NCBI GenBank assembly: GCA_025060475.1
Contig: JANXBZ010000012.1
Location: 1 to 48,141 of the forward strand
Direction of reading: 5' to 3'
DNA from: Dictyoglomus sp.
GTDB taxonomy: Bacteria > Dictyoglomota > Dictyoglomia > Dictyoglomales > Dictyoglomaceae
Length of the DNA stretch: 48,141 bases
Of the stretch, positions 1 through 7,189 are shown in pieces (position 1 is the first letter of the stretch; every line of letters begins with the position of its first letter). The notes below the pieces were generated by a model. It saw nothing but the letters and a program-made list of their open reading frames with translations, searched no databases and was not told the DNA's origin. Position numbers and translations under genes: made by a program.

Positions 1-2724
1 GAAGAAGAATTAATACAAGAATGTTTCAATCCCTTATAGGTACGCTACAAACTCTTTGCAAAATATGCAAAGATTACTTCTCTTTTTTTGTTTCAATCCC
101 TTATAGGTACGCTACAAACATAATATGCAATTGGATAAAAAAAGAGAAAGAAGAGGGTTTCAATCCCTTATAGGTACGCTACAAACTGGTTTTTGTGTTT
201 CTACTTGAAGTATTTCATTTTTGTTTCAATCCCTTATAGGTACGCTACAAACCTTGTTCTTATTTTGTCAAGAGAAAAATATTTTTTCTGTTTCAATCCC
301 TTATAGGTACGCTACAAACAGACTTTTTACAAAAATTTTTGCCAAATTTTTTGCAGTTTCAATCCCTTATAGGTACGCTACAAACATAGACGCCAAAAAA
401 GCCCTGGAAATTTTGAAAAAAAGTTTCAATCCCTTATAGGTACGCTACAAACAAAAGAAACGAATATTTCAAGCACTTTCTCTATCTGGTTTCAATCCCT
501 TATAGGTACGCTACAAACGTAATAGGCACAGGAATTCTCAGAAAAGAGAATTCCGTTTCAATCCCTTATAGGTACGCTACAAACTTATCTCTTTTTGTAT
601 TTATTTTTTTCAATATTACTGTTTCAATCCCTTATAGGTACGCTACAAACAGAAAAAGGAAAAGTAATCCCAAGAGAAAAGGGAAAGGTTTCAATCCCTT
701 ATAGGTACGCTACAAACAAGAGATAATTCAACTTATAATCAAGAATGCAGAACTAGTTTCAATCCCTTATAGGTACGCTACAAACCAAACAAAGAGAGCC
801 AGTCAAGGAGAGAAGAAAGAGGGTTTCAATCCCTTATAGGTACGCTACAAACTTTTTCTTGCCAATTCTCTATTATTCTTTGTTCCCAGTTTCAATCCCT
901 TATAGGTACGCTACAAACTACTCTATTTATTTATTATATATAGAGGGCTGGAGGCAGTTTCAATCCCTTATAGGTACGCTACAAACGAAATTGGTCTTTT
1001 TATCAAAATTTCATCTTTTTGAGTTTCAATCCCTTATAGGTACGCTACAAACTGGATATACATAATAGAATTCTTGCTCGACTTTTACTGTTTCAATCCC
1101 TTATAGGTACGCTACAAACTGGAATAACTTGTGCCAATTTACTTCACCTCCATTAGGTTTCAATCCCTTATAGGTACGCTACAAACGAAAGGGAAAGTAA
1201 TCCCAAGAGAAATCCCCAAATAATGTTTCAATCCCTTATAGGTACGCTACAAACTGCCATTTGCGAAATGCCCAAGGGACCGAAATTGATAGGTTTCAAT
1301 CCCTTATAGGTACGCTACAAACGATTTGATGTATCTAGATCCCTTTGTGTGCCGTATAGTTTCAATCCCTTATAGGTACGCTACAAACGCTTTACATTTC
1401 CTTTTGAAAATCAAAGAAACTAAAGGTTTCAATCCCTTATAGGTACGCTACAAACTAGGGACCGCTCAAAGTTTACTCTATGCTTCTGAAAAGTTTCAAT
1501 CCCTTATAGGTACGCTACAAACTCTTGCCCTTCGGCTTTTCTGTATTTGAAATTGTGTAGTTTCAATCCCTTATAGGTACGCTACAAACTGCAAATGAAG
1601 CGGCAAACGAGTTAGGTAGTTTTCTGTTTCAATCCCTTATAGGTACGCTACAAACTTTCTATGTCGTCTTCAGAGGGAGGCTTTGCTATTCGTTTCAATC
1701 CCTTATAGGTACGCTACAAACGGAATTAAATTCAAAGATGATGCAACATTTACAAATCCGTTTCAATCCCTTATAGGTACGCTACAAACGGAAACACAGG
1801 AGATTATATTACACTTGCAGGAGATAGTTTCAATCCCTTATAGGTACGCTACAAACATTATTAATTTTATCCATTTTTATCCCCCCTTTTTTTAGTTTCA
1901 ATCCCTTATAGGTACGCTACAAACATTTTTGCCAAATTTTTTGCATATTATGCAATTGGAGTTTCAATCCCTTATAGGTACGCTACAAACAAGAGAAAGT
2001 AATCCCAAGGTAATCCTAAAGAGAGAAAGGTTTCAATCCCTTATAGGTACGCTACAAACAAAAGAACAATTGGTACAAGCAATATTATATCAGGAGTTTC
2101 AATCCCTTATAGGTACGCTACAAACTCTTTTGAAGAGAATTCCTAGTGCCTATTACAAATTGTTTCAATCCCTTATAGGTACGCTACAAACTCTCTTACT
2201 TTCTCTTTTTAATCTTTTTACTAGGAGGGTTTCAATCCCTTATAGGTACGCTACAAACAATTATATGTAGCAAGAGAAGTAATTCAATTTTTACGTTTCA
2301 ATCCCTTATAGGTACGCTACAAACAATTTATTAATTTACTTCTTGCAAGAGGGTTGGAGAAGTTTCAATCCCTTATAGGTACGCTACAAACAGGAGGTGA
2401 GATTGTGAAAAAGTTTGAGAAGTATTAGTTTCAATCCCTTATAGGTACGCTACAAACTTTTGTATCGATAATTACAATTGGAAAAGCAAGTGAAGTTTCA
2501 ATCCCTTATAGGTACGCTACAAACCAGGAGGGTTGGAGAGTAGTAAGAGTAGAAAGAAGAGTTTCAATCCCTTATAGGTACGCTACAAACGAGTAAAGGT
2601 ATGCTAAGAGAATTACTCCCAAAATTATGTTTCAATCCCTTATAGGTACGCTACAAACGCATATTGTTTTCTTAGTGTCAAGACTTTTTTACAAGTTTCA
2701 ATCCCTTATAGGTACGCTACAAAC
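1..2724 (-). CRISPR. CRISPR array, 41 identical repeats, truncated at left edge
   Basis: The 30-nt repeat, read on the + strand, begins GTTTCAATCC and ends GCTACAAAC. By eye all 41 copies are identical, the first at 23-52 and the last at 2695-2724. The 40 complete spacers are 36-39 nt; a 22-nt partial spacer (1-22) shows the array continues to the left. On the minus strand the repeat ends in ATTGAAAC, the usual 8-nt crRNA 5' handle of type I-B/III systems, so transcription should run leftward from a leader at 2725-2921 and the newest spacers should lie near 2700. The absence of repeat decay fits a leader-proximal, active array. No cas gene flanks the leader side, so Cas proteins must be encoded beyond the left edge or elsewhere. 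Several spacers share sequence with each other (see findings). Small ORFs across the array are translations of the repeat, not genes. Confidence 0.99.
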
Positions 2725-2755
2725 CCACAGATAATAGAAAAAAGCTACACTTTTA

Positions 2756-2785
2756 AAAATATACCCTAATAGGAACTCTACAATT
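2756..2785 (-). repeat. Degenerate CRISPR repeat in the leader
   Basis: Aligned without gaps to the array repeat, 17 of the 22 bases at 2764-2785 are identical, while 2756-2763, which would encode the crRNA handle, are not. It is separated from the first true repeat by 31 nt (2725-2755), shorter than the 36-39-nt spacers. It lies at the predicted 5' end of the pre-crRNA. It could be a decayed repeat, an adaptation recognition site, or part of a crRNA-like regulatory RNA. Confidence 0.6.
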
Positions 2786-2793
2786 TTAAAAAA

Positions 2794-2822
2794 ATGATAT
2801 CATAAATTTTTATAGATGTAAA
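2794..2822 (-). promoter_or_regulatory. Predicted promoter of the CRISPR array
   Basis: On the minus strand a -35 box TTTACA (2817-2822) is followed after exactly 17 nt by a -10 box TATCAT (2794-2799). Transcription would start near 2787 and run leftward into the array, immediately before the degenerate repeat at 2756-2785. The boxes match sigma-70 consensus at 5 of 6 positions each. Confidence 0.65.
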
Positions 2823-2843
2823 GTACCTTTAATTTGTTTTTAA

Positions 2844-2895
2844 TTTTTCTGTCGATCCCCAGGGTTTTTTGCAAGATTGAAGATGGACAGAAAAA
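2844..2895. repeat. 10-bp inverted repeat in the CRISPR leader
   Basis: TTTTTCTGTC at 2844-2853 is the exact reverse complement of GACAGAAAAA at 2886-2895, separated by 32 nt. It lies upstream of the predicted CRISPR -35 box. The loop is long for an RNA terminator, so a paired protein-binding site for adaptation or regulation is possible. The function is unknown. Confidence 0.5.
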
Positions 2896-2921
2896 TAAAG
2901 TTTTCTTATTAAATGATCTTA

Positions 2922-3383
2922 CTAATTTACATCTCCTAAATATACAGGACCAAGTAATTCTCCATTTTTTCCTATCAAATCTTTCAATATTTTAGGATAA
3001 ATTCTATAAGAGGATAGCTTATCTAAGGGAATCCATTCAATATCTACTTGAAAATTGTCAGGATTTTCTCCTTTTTTTAGGTTTTCTTCGTCTTTTATTT
3101 CGCAAAGGAACATATATTCTACTTGATGTAAGTGGGAGTCATATTCAGAAAATTCATGATTTTTCCCAATATATTCCCTTATATATCTAATATCATGAAT
3201 AATAATATTTACGTTAAGTTCTTCTTTACACTCGCGAATCAGAGTTTCCTTTAAATTTTCAAAGGGGTTTTGGCCTCCTCCAGGTAAAATATAAAAATAT
3301 CCCCAACGGTCAATACCTTTAATCATTAATATTTTTCCATCTTTTATTATTATTGCCTTAGCAGAATTTCTTATATTAGACAT
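2922..3383 (-). CDS. NUDIX hydrolase
   Basis: The 153-residue protein has the size of a single NUDIX domain, which cleaves nucleoside diphosphates linked to another moiety. The NUDIX box is visible as G36-x5-E42-x7-R50-E51-x2-E54-E55, preceded by the typical YILPGGG strand. The glycine usually found two residues after the EE pair is replaced by N57. Metal-binding glutamates are retained, so activity is likely; the substrate cannot be read from sequence. The ATG start has an AGGAG site about 8 nt upstream. The gene diverges from the reductase operon at 3433 and its 3' end faces the CRISPR leader. No functional link to CRISPR is implied by the sequence. Confidence 0.9.
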   Translation of the reverse strand: MSNIRNSAKAIIIKDGKILMIKGIDRWGYFYILPGGGQNPFENLKETLIRECKEELNVNIIIHDIRYIREYIGKNHEFSEYDSHLHQVEYMFLCEIKDEENLKKGENPDNFQVDIEWIPLDKLSSYRIYPKILKDLIGKNGELLGPVYLGDVN

Positions 3384-3432
3384 TCTTAATTCTCCTTTCT
3401 TGAAATTTTAGCCTTATAGTATAATTTATTTC

Positions 3433-4434
3433 ATGAGACTAGAAGAAATAAAATATTTATATCAAAAAATAAAAAAAGAGTCTATTTCTTCAGAAAAGTC
3501 TGTATTTTATTTTTGTGCTTATGTTCCTTGTGAGCTAATATATGCAAGTGGATTTAAACCTATAAGGTTTTTACCTTCTCCTATATATTTTGCGAGAAGT
3601 GATGAATATTTACCAAAATATTTGTGTCCTTATTTAAGATCTATTACTGAAGAGGTTTTAAGAGAAGATAAAAGGTTTGAAAAGGTAATATTTACTGATA
3701 GTTGCGATTCTTCAAGAAGAATTTTTGAAGTCTGGAGATATCTGAATCTTTCTAAAGAAATTTATTTTCTTCAAATTCCTTTTGGAGAGAAAGAAGAGGA
3801 TGTTAGGTATTTTGCAAAAAATATAAGAGATCTTTTCTATTTTTTAAATACAAAGGGAAATATAGAAAATATTTTTGAAAGTATAAATATCTATAACTTG
3901 GGAAGAAAGAAAATAAGAAACTCCTGGCAATATTCTTTGCTCTTTTATTCTATGGATATTAAAGAATTTTTAAAGCTTTCTTTTGAACCTACAAATGACA
4001 ATAATAAAAAATTTTATCTTTTTTCTACAGTGTATCCTATAGAACTAATAGAGTATATGGAGAATTTAAATTTAAATATCATATATGATGATTCCTGTTT
4101 TGGAATAAGAACAGAAGAAGAAATAAAAATATTAGATGATGATCCTTTTTATTCTCTGGCCTATTATTATCTTAAAAGGGAAGGTTGTGTGAGAAGAAGA
4201 AATTTATTGGATAAAATTTCTATAATTAAAGAAAGAGTGAAAAAAGAAAATATAAAAGGGGTAATTTTTTATTCCTTAAAATATTGTGATCCCCTTCTTT
4301 TTTATATCCCTATATTAAAGGAAGAATTGAGAAAGGAGAATATACCATCGTTAATTTTAGAAGATGATTTTACCATGGGAATAAAAGGACAAATAAGAAC
4401 AAGGTTAGAAGCTTTTTTGGAGATGGTAGGATGA
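3433..4434 (+). CDS. 2-hydroxyacyl-CoA dehydratase-like subunit, first
   Basis: The 333-residue protein resembles the HgdA/HgdB (2-hydroxyglutaryl-CoA dehydratase D-component, benzoyl-CoA reductase) fold. It has an early Cys in the CELIYASGFKP region, CPYLRS, TDSCDSSRR, and a C-terminal EDD...R(T)RLEAFLE ending shared with the next gene. Known family members hold a [4Fe-4S] or double-cubane cluster and accept one low-potential electron from an ATP-driven activase; such an activase is encoded two genes downstream. The gene overlaps the next one by 4 nt (ATGA). A TATAAT at 3420-3425 lies 7 nt before the ATG and no Shine-Dalgarno is visible, so the mRNA may be leaderless. The substrate is unknown; no CoA-transferase or acyl-CoA dehydrogenase gene is adjacent. 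Confidence 0.75.
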   Translation: MRLEEIKYLYQKIKKESISSEKSVFYFCAYVPCELIYASGFKPIRFLPSPIYFARSDEYLPKYLCPYLRSITEEVLREDKRFEKVIFTDSCDSSRRIFEVWRYLNLSKEIYFLQIPFGEKEEDVRYFAKNIRDLFYFLNTKGNIENIFESINIYNLGRKKIRNSWQYSLLFYSMDIKEFLKLSFEPTNDNNKKFYLFSTVYPIELIEYMENLNLNIIYDDSCFGIRTEEEIKILDDDPFYSLAYYYLKREGCVRRRNLLDKISIIKERVKKENIKGVIFYSLKYCDPLLFYIPILKEELRKENIPSLILEDDFTMGIKGQIRTRLEAFLEMVG

Positions 4435-5663
4435 AATTAAATTTAGACAAGAGAAATATAGAGAAAATAAGAAGAATTTTAAGATTTCCCCTTGTCTATC
4501 CATTAGGAGATATATTTATTAAGTTAAAATTTAGAAAGAATAAGGTAACTCTTGTATCATATGAATATGCCTTAGATCTAGTTAAGCATAATTATATGGG
4601 GAAAAATAAAGTAGTAATTACCAATATTTTAATGCCTTCAGAATTATTTTTTGCTCTTGATCTTTTCCCATTATTTCCAGAGGTAGCTTCAGCTTTTTCA
4701 GCTTCTTTAGGATTTGCAGATAAGACTCTTTTTGACAGTGAGGAAATAGTATATTCAAAGGATTTATGTAGTGTTCATAGGAATGTCATAGGATTAACTA
4801 AGAATGGTATTCTTCCAAAACCAGATTTCATCATTTCTACATCCCATCCCTGTCACTCTGCTATTCACTCTTTCTTTTTGATTTCTCAACTTTTTGGAGG
4901 AGAATATTTCCCCATAGATGTTCCTCTAAGGGACAATAATTCTATTGACTACACTGCAAAGAAATTTGAAGAGCTTTTCTTTATATTAGTTAAAAAATTA
5001 AAGATTAAAAAACCTATGTTAGGTTTGGAAAGAGCTATTAAGTATTCCAATATTTCTAGAGATTATCTTATGGAGATAAATGAGTTAAGAAAAGATTATT
5101 TAGTTATTGATGGGAGGAATTTTTTAGATTATGCAGGAATGATCTTTTCTACCTTTGGTTCCCATTGGGGAGTTAAATTTTTTAAGGTTTTAAGGGATGA
5201 AATTAAGGATAGAATTAAAAAGAAGAAGTTTCTTCCTTACAAAAAAAGAGTATGTTGGCTTCATCTTGGTCCTTATTTTAAAACAGATTTTTTTGATTGG
5301 CTAAAAAGTAAGTCTTGTACTATTGTATTTGAGGAAAGTAGTAAAGTCTATTGGGATAAACTTGATCCTAAGGATCCCTTTAAGTCTCTTGCAAAGAAAG
5401 TTATAAATGCCAAAATTTTTTATGATGTTGATGAGAGATTTAATATAGCTCTAGAAGGAGTAAAAGATTATAAGGCACAGGGAGTAATTATTTTTAATCA
5501 ATGGGGTTGTAGACAAGGAGCTGGAAATTCCTATATCTTAAGAAGGAGATTAATGGAGGTGGGTATTCCTGCTATAGTAATAGATGGTGATTTAATAGAT
5601 AAAGGGAATTTTCCATTAGAACAGGTAAAGACAAGAATTGAGGCTTTTCTGGAGGTGTTATAA
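4431..5663 (+). CDS. 2-hydroxyacyl-CoA dehydratase-like subunit, second
   Basis: The 410-residue protein is the partner of the preceding gene and belongs to the same HgdB/FldB-type superfamily. Candidate cluster or active-site cysteines sit in DLCSVHR, TSHPCHSAIH and NQWGCRQGAG, and the C-terminus (IDGDLIDKGN...TRIEAFLEVL) matches the family end seen in the upstream paralogue. The two subunits probably form a heterodimer carrying Fe-S clusters that is reduced by the downstream activase. It overlaps the upstream gene by 4 nt and stops directly before the next ATG, so the three genes are translationally coupled. The reaction could be dehydration of a 2-hydroxyacyl-CoA or another difficult low-potential reduction; the sequence does not decide. 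Confidence 0.75.
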   Translation: MKLNLDKRNIEKIRRILRFPLVYPLGDIFIKLKFRKNKVTLVSYEYALDLVKHNYMGKNKVVITNILMPSELFFALDLFPLFPEVASAFSASLGFADKTLFDSEEIVYSKDLCSVHRNVIGLTKNGILPKPDFIISTSHPCHSAIHSFFLISQLFGGEYFPIDVPLRDNNSIDYTAKKFEELFFILVKKLKIKKPMLGLERAIKYSNISRDYLMEINELRKDYLVIDGRNFLDYAGMIFSTFGSHWGVKFFKVLRDEIKDRIKKKKFLPYKKRVCWLHLGPYFKTDFFDWLKSKSCTIVFEESSKVYWDKLDPKDPFKSLAKKVINAKIFYDVDERFNIALEGVKDYKAQGVIIFNQWGCRQGAGNSYILRRRLMEVGIPAIVIDGDLIDKGNFPLEQVKTRIEAFLEVL

Positions 5664-6455
5664 ATGGATTATTTTTTAGGAGTAGATATTGGCTCTATAA
5701 CCACAAAAGTAGTTCTCCTTTCTTATGATAAGGAGAAAGTAGAGATTTTGGATTATAAAATAACAAAAACTGGGGTTGATGGTAATAATTCTGCTAAGAG
5801 ATTAATCGAAGATATTTTAAGAGAAAAGAATATTTATGATTATGAAGTAAAAGGAATAACTGCGACAGGATATGGAAGAATAAGGGTTGATTTTACAAGT
5901 TTTACAAAAACAGAGATCTCTTGTCATGGAAAGGGGGTAAATTTTGTTTTTCCTTCTGCAAGAACTATTTTAGATATAGGAGGGCAGGATAGCAAGGCTA
6001 TAAGAATAGGAAGTAAAGGAGAAGTATTAGATTTTGCTATGAATGATAAATGTGCTGCAGGAACAGGAAGATTTCTTGAAGTTATGTCAAAGGTATTGGA
6101 GGAAGATTTAGAAAATTTTGGGAAGATTCATATGACAACTAAAGATATGGTGGAAATTACAAATATTTGCACTGTTTTTGCAGAATCAGAGATAATAACT
6201 CTTCTTTCTGAAGGGTACAATAAAAATTCTATTATTAAAGGATTAAATTACTCTATTGGAAAAAGGGTTATTTCCTTGTTAAAAAGAGTTGGGATAGAAA
6301 GGGACGTAGTGATGACAGGAGGAGTTGCAAAGAACGAAGGAGTAAAAAAGGCTATAGAGGATCTATTAGGATTTGAAATTTTTATACCCTTTGAGCCCCA
6401 AATAATAGGAGCTTTAGGAGCGGGACTTTTTGCAATAGAAAACTATAAGTCATGA
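5664..6455 (+). CDS. ATP-dependent activase of the dehydratase-like reductase (HgdC family)
   Basis: The 263-residue ASKHA-fold ATPase has the phosphate-1 motif GVDIGSITTK at the N-terminus and DIGGQDSK at 104-111. The cluster-binding cysteines are C130 (NDKCAAGTG) and C169 (ICTVFAESE), spaced as in the homodimeric 2-hydroxyglutaryl-CoA dehydratase activator, where one [4Fe-4S] bridges the dimer. ATP hydrolysis drives transfer of a very low-potential electron to the dehydratase component, here the two preceding gene products. The start codon directly follows the upstream stop and lies behind GGAGG. Its 3' end overlaps the convergent nucleotidyltransferase gene by 13 nt. Confidence 0.92.
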   Translation: MDYFLGVDIGSITTKVVLLSYDKEKVEILDYKITKTGVDGNNSAKRLIEDILREKNIYDYEVKGITATGYGRIRVDFTSFTKTEISCHGKGVNFVFPSARTILDIGGQDSKAIRIGSKGEVLDFAMNDKCAAGTGRFLEVMSKVLEEDLENFGKIHMTTKDMVEITNICTVFAESEIITLLSEGYNKNSIIKGLNYSIGKRVISLLKRVGIERDVVMTGGVAKNEGVKKAIEDLLGFEIFIPFEPQIIGALGAGLFAIENYKS

Positions 6456-7189
6456 AATCTTTTCAAAAAATCTTTTAAATTATTAGCTTTTTCTATTTGA
6501 CTTAACGTTCCAAATTCCCAATGGAAATCCTTGATAATAAAAGGTCTAATATCTAGATTGTCTTCTAACATCATCTTGATTGCGGATGTAAATTCATATT
6601 CACCCCTTTCTGAAGGGCTTATTTTTTCTAAATACTTAAAGATTATAGGTTTTAAAATGAAAATTCCTGTCTGGTTCCAATTTGTGTTAACTTTTTCCTT
6701 GGGTTTTTCAATAATGTCTTTTACCTTTAGAATATTATTTTTCTCCTCTAAAAATACTGCACCTCCCTGGGAGAGGTCTTCTTCGTAATTTAATCCCATA
6801 AGGACATCACAAGGATTTTTTTCAAAGGCATTTTTAATATTAATATAATTTTCCCTTTCAACGATTACATCTCCCCAACTTAACATAAAATTCTCATTTC
6901 CTACAAAATCTTTTGCCTTTAAAACTGCAGCTCCTGTTCCTTTTGGAATTTCTTGAATTATATAGGAAATATTAAGATTAATTATTTTTCCATCTTTGAA
7001 GTAATCTTTAATTTTCTCTCCTAAATATCCTATAATTATTGCTATATCTTTTATCCCTGCATATTTAAAGCCCAAGAGAATGTATTCTAGTATAGGTTTT
7101 CCTAAGACTGGGATTAGCCCTTTTGGAAGGTTGTCAGTTAAAGGTCTTAATCTTTTTCCTAACCCTGCAGAAAGTATTACTCCTTTCAA
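6443..7189 (-). CDS. Sugar-1-phosphate nucleotidyltransferase
   Basis: The 248-residue protein begins with the pyrophosphorylase signature VILSAGLGKRLRPLT and continues PKGLIPVLGKPILEY, the NTP- and sugar-phosphate-binding elements of the RfbA/GalU/ManC-type family. It forms an NDP-sugar for glycan or exopolysaccharide synthesis. Length fits a single catalytic domain without the left-handed beta-helix of GlmU-type enzymes. The start is TTG at 7189, the only codon that places the conserved N-terminus correctly; a GAAGG motif lies about 10 nt upstream. Nucleotide and sugar specificity cannot be assigned. It converges on the activase gene with a 13-nt overlap. Confidence 0.88.
   Translation of the reverse strand: MKGVILSAGLGKRLRPLTDNLPKGLIPVLGKPILEYILLGFKYAGIKDIAIIIGYLGEKIKDYFKDGKIINLNISYIIQEIPKGTGAAVLKAKDFVGNENFMLSWGDVIVERENYINIKNAFEKNPCDVLMGLNYEEDLSQGGAVFLEEKNNILKVKDIIEKPKEKVNTNWNQTGIFILKPIIFKYLEKISPSERGEYEFTSAIKMMLEDNLDIRPFIIKDFHWEFGTLSQIEKANNLKDFLKRFHDL

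Follow-up and report, generated by a model that had tools for sequence, protein, structure and literature searches.

The available excerpt of a report on Dictyoglomus turgidum DSM 6724 describes a CRISPR array (array 1) that lacks cas genes and has spacers averaging 36 nt in length (PMC5167688). In Sulfolobus, according to the accessible part of another report, many different overlapping spacers were acquired de novo from the small element pMGB1 (PMC4390879), and in Marinomonas, as stated in an extract of a third, a III-B system uses type I-F crRNAs against escaping phages (PMC5576922). Here, we analyzed a stretch of DNA of 48,141 nt (hereafter, the window), which lies at the beginning of contig C12 in a Dictyoglomus sp. 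assembly (1.72 Mb, 81 contigs). The window contains a CRISPR array on the minus strand (positions 23–2724), consisting of 41 identical 30-nt direct repeats and 40 unique spacers of near-constant length (36–39 nt). In our comparison, array 1 of D. turgidum has the same 30-nt repeat as the window array, and it likewise has no cas genes beside it (PMC5167688). The window array resembles the Sulfolobus case in that many overlapping spacers appear to come out of one small element, whereas the accessible part of that report concerns a known plasmid and acquisition in the laboratory, and here we have a single natural array whose source we only infer (PMC4390879). With Marinomonas, as represented in the extract, the Dictyoglomus genome shares a type I system together with III-B genes, and variable targets; however, the type I system is I-F there and I-B here, and crRNA sharing in the present genome is a putative analogy (PMC5576922).

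The contig end cuts into a partial spacer where the array starts, so older spacers may be missing. The crRNA strand was taken to be the minus strand, on which the repeat ends in ATTGAAAC, which we take to be the crRNA 5′ handle, as in known systems. The right flank of the array (leader, positions 2725–2925, minus strand) could be aligned with eight leaders from other arrays, a degenerate repeat unit being part of the match; this alignment of nine leaders placed a conserved leader on one side of the array. New spacers are usually added at the leader end; therefore, with the leader on the right, spacer 40 should be the newest, and leader conservation supports the first-pass annotation, which had called it so. 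Judging from its alignment with the other eight, the array looks able to acquire spacers. The degenerate repeat copy CCCTTATAGGAAAGCTACAATTTT occurred in 9/9 leaders, at a distance of approximately 40 nt from the final repeat, and an inverted repeat (CTGTC...GACAG) lay farther out in all nine; both elements of the window leader were among the more diverged copies.

The cas genes of this genome are encoded elsewhere. Contig C11 carries Cas6, Cas8b/Csh1, Cas7, Cas5, Cas3, Cas4, Cas1, and Cas2 beside an array with a repeat ending in GTACTCTACAAAC, that is, a type I-B gene set (cas8b, cas7, cas5, cas3, cas6, and the adaptation genes) that does not adjoin the window array, and the repeat of this cas-adjacent array differs from that of the window by one base. 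On contig C8, Cmr1–6 (III-B) adjoin a repeat of the C11 array's variant at the contig end. The C11 array is itself cut by a contig end, and a single array may have been split between the ends of C11 and C8. A repeat three bases different from that of the window was present at L043 (G019:C36), in a genome outside the family that shares only the domain.

Four spacers had been proposed in the first-pass annotation to tile about 100 nt of a single invader region. The coordinates and letters of all four were correct, namely, spacer 2 (positions 120–156), spacer 5 (320–355), spacer 29 (1925–1960), and spacer 40 (2659–2694), and when chained in the order 40-5-29-2, they covered 95 nt. The last 21 nt of spacer 5 are the first 21 nt of spacer 29, and this identity is exact to both spacer ends. 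The end of spacer 29, TATGCAATTGGA, is found inside spacer 2, the right end of the tile; over the full overlap, the final 16 nt of spacer 29 and the initial 16 nt of spacer 2 agree at all positions but one (15/16 nt). Spacer 40, the left end of the tile, ends in AGACTTTTTTACAA and spacer 5 begins with AGACTTTTTACAA, one T apart (last 14 versus first 13 nt). The overlapping copies of the tile differ, in other words, by one base or one T. In a plain local alignment of all spacers against all, with 60 dinucleotide-preserving shuffled arrays as the null, the 5/29 pair scored 42 (highest among the shuffled arrays, 33), the 2/29 pair scored 27 (mean null maximum, 26.7), and the 40/5 pair scored 21, which is at chance level. 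Because the claim concerns spacer ends that meet spacer starts, we also scored dovetails, which require an end-to-start geometry; the scores were 42 for 5-29, 27 for 29-2, and 22 for 40-5. When the 5/29 pair was taken as an anchor, the best extension to the right among the other 38 spacers was spacer 2 (score 27, matched in 0/600 shuffles), and the best extension to the left was spacer 40 (score 22, matched in 1/600 shuffles); one control spacer from the relative G004 scored 24 against spacer 5. The 5/29 overlap is certain, the 29/2 link is strong, and the 40/5 link, weak and AT-rich, is the weakest of the chain. The four-spacer chain stands, with the two weaker links as extensions of the anchor. 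We make no claim that spacers 1 and 37 also belong to the tile (lowest uncorrected p = 0.0035 in 72 tests).

Overlap is array-wide rather than peculiar to one locus, which the first-pass annotation had overlooked. The pairs whose local alignments exceeded every one of the 60 shuffles were 10/18, 5/29, 8/32 (on opposite strands), and 18/30. Nine dovetails scored at least 22, eight of them on the same strand, compared with a shuffle mean of 0.63 and a shuffle maximum of 3, and six scored at least 26, compared with 0.13 in the shuffles. The strong overlaps beyond the tile include a second group, detected by both local alignment and dovetail scoring, formed by spacers 10 (positions 651–687), 18 (1187–1224), and 30 (1991–2029), which have a common core (24/25 nt between spacers 10 and 18) and diverging flanks. 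They also include the opposite-strand pair of spacers 8 (519–554, with an inverted repeat within it) and 32 (2126–2161), and the pair of spacers 35 (2325–2361) and 38 (2525–2560), the latter pair being weak, with a dovetail score of 22. As controls, we used relatives' arrays of at least 20 spacers, after the removal of exact duplicates and the exclusion of five smaller sets; the seven control arrays contained 0, 2, 0, 3, 2, 0, and 0 dovetails scoring at least 22, with the count of 3 and one of the counts of 2 including one pair counted both ways. D. turgidum array 1 differs from the window array in the same respect, with 0 such dovetails versus 9. When the window spacers were compared with 316 real spacers from other arrays, 6 of the 50,560 comparisons reached a score of at least 22 and none reached 26, so that the same number of comparisons as within the window array is expected to yield 0.37 and 0.00, respectively. 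Relative to the shuffles, the control arrays, and the real spacers of other arrays, the window array thus contains overlapping spacers beyond chance, as repeated sampling would produce. In a relative's genome, G004, the array L041 (G004:C1:176000-190000, array at 2489–6856) contained three-spacer blocks duplicated within the array (spacers 1–3 = 4–6; spacers 18–20 = 38–40), and one of its spacers also occurred in L040, the other array of that genome.

The best overall explanation, to which we assign a probability of approximately 0.68, is that an array written by the I-B system repeatedly captured pieces of one invader and its slightly diverged relatives, drawn from a small or low-diversity pool. 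Under this explanation, cas1, cas2, and cas4, the adaptation genes of the type I-B system on contig C11, would write the window array in trans. Separate events, spread over many additions, would each have taken a piece of approximately 37 nt, overlapping with others, out of one short AT-rich region that a mobile element has in common with slightly diverged relatives. The positions of the overlapping spacers, far apart in the array (2, 5, 29, and 40), fit separate events. The overlaps would arise from a small or low-diversity invader pool and would not necessarily require a special hot spot. Cas6 would cleave the minus-strand crRNAs, which would then guide the I-B complex with Cas3 and may also serve the co-resident III-B Cmr complex. 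We see no new system here: the array is a natural and unusually clear case of repeated sampling, which is ordinary behavior for CRISPR systems of this known kind. Through the overlapping spacers of one natural array, an uncultured mobile element can be glimpsed even in the absence of its own sequence; should that element be found, changes in its locus between infections could be followed by comparing spacers of different ages.

The main rival is that the overlaps reflect a short repeated element, such as operator-like palindromes or a tandem repeat, with copies at multiple sites of one invader or in several unrelated invaders, in which case there would be no single-locus tile. The common core and diverging flanks of spacers 10, 18, and 30 fit such a repeat better than one locus and thus count against our preferred explanation. 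The dispersed repeat would also account for the inverted repeats with arms of at least 7, which occurred in 5/40 spacers versus 0.69 in the shuffles, and for the palindrome in spacer 1 that resembles the perfect palindrome of spacer 29, TTGCATATTATGCAA. However, the four spacers chain without conflict in order or orientation, and the exact 21-nt identity of spacers 5 and 29 runs to both spacer ends; we therefore regard a dispersed repeat as unlikely, although worth serious consideration.

Chance similarity among AT-rich spacers is a much poorer candidate. The window spacers are the most AT-rich among the larger spacer sets compared (31.6% GC), and the plain local alignment placed the 40/5 pair at chance and the 2/29 pair near it, but the composition-keeping dinucleotide shuffles fell far short of the overlap seen, as did the real spacers of other arrays. 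Chance, already unlikely for the 5/29 pair, is accordingly very improbable for the array. An origin of the spacers in the host chromosome or in a resident provirus would be still more surprising, with no positive point in its favor: among the 40 of 79 candidate places that were scored in the host genome (99.56% complete), only short matches were found outside the arrays and stray repeats, and the core of spacer 29, searched with up to three mismatches, was confined to the array among seven genomes. The preferred explanation, repeated capture from one invader and its relatives, is opposed by the absence of a protospacer in the collections searched, which leaves it with no single replicon, and also by the one-base or one-T differences between overlapping copies and by the weak, AT-rich 40/5 link.

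With the array stretch as the query, no protospacer was found in GenBank phages (8 records, E-values of 0.07–0.8) or in plasmids (12 records, some of which looked like other arrays, judged by matches over several repeat lengths, and the rest weak). Matches to the 95-nt tile came from 17 phage records and 28 plasmid records, in no case over 80% of its length. Among 290 genomes, with at most three candidates scored per genome, 53 reached E ≤ 0.01 with the tile, one of these being the array of the window itself; the match next in rank (1.6e−5) had 76% identity in AT-rich letters, and no protospacer was recognized. Eight scans of viral contigs with exact or degenerate patterns for parts of nine spacers also yielded no protospacer, six of them without any match. 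Two viral contigs were rejected because only a 19-nt core was common, and one that fitted a degenerate peptide pattern, with 27/31 nt of spacer 24 matched, was not accepted as a protospacer. A scan of genome contigs with one 21-mer found three unrelated organisms that share the 21-mer and not the remainder. No protospacer was found in the family relatives (five of six covered), where the weak matches looked like chance; one (G006:C190) was rejected because an open reading frame encloses it, and the best two of G003 were rejected as partial (26–30 nt). An attempt to read a PAM via one large array of G004 yielded, across six genomes, nothing but matches to arrays or stray repeats. In the collections searched, no protospacer was found for the window array, and hence no PAM could be read, although the failure of these searches says little. 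A literature search on Dictyoglomus with virus, hot spring, and viral contigs found no paper. The first-pass annotation had held that one lineage of mobile element keeps returning. The sampling of one sequence by several spacers, at positions far apart in the array and with small variations, is supported, whereas no replicon was found, and the virus and plasmid searches gave neither one match spanning the spacers nor complete matches in unrelated replicons. Our best inference from the spacers is that the source was probably one such returning lineage.

The same annotation had noted TTGACA on the reverse strand of spacer 40, which is present there; the motif occurs on the minus strand of two spacers. 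Together with the palindromes, this motif is all that suggests promoter or intergenic control DNA as the target, a possibility that is unproven. A codon model that assigned held-out gene pieces to the correct strand in 83% of cases called 28/40 spacers as coding on the plus strand (p = 0.017), with only 15/21 among the confident calls (p = 0.078), and found no coding-strand bias in the other 11 spacer sets; the spacer-sense bias of the window array is a suggestive but weak hint. A peptide reading common to spacers 10 and 18 was dropped, as it was seen by eye only and its frame was lost in spacer 30. It is conceivable, but doubtful, that the array favors non-coding DNA of a regulatory and palindromic kind, taken mostly from one strand of a single small thermophilic element, and records base changes in its operators over successive infections under CRISPR pressure.

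The overlap count also gives a rough bound on the size of the mobile element. We modeled 40 spacers drawn uniformly from one sequence, with overlaps of at least 13 nt and hot spots ignored, and compared the outcome with a count of 4, which was our own choice of clear overlaps. The modeled chance of at least four overlaps fell from 0.955 for a 5-kb sequence to 0.543 for 10 kb, 0.135 for 20 kb, 0.049 for 30 kb, and 0.010 for 50 kb; for 3 kb, the chance of at most four overlaps was 0.002. Under uniform sampling, the model would roughly bound the effective invader pool at approximately 4–30 kb.
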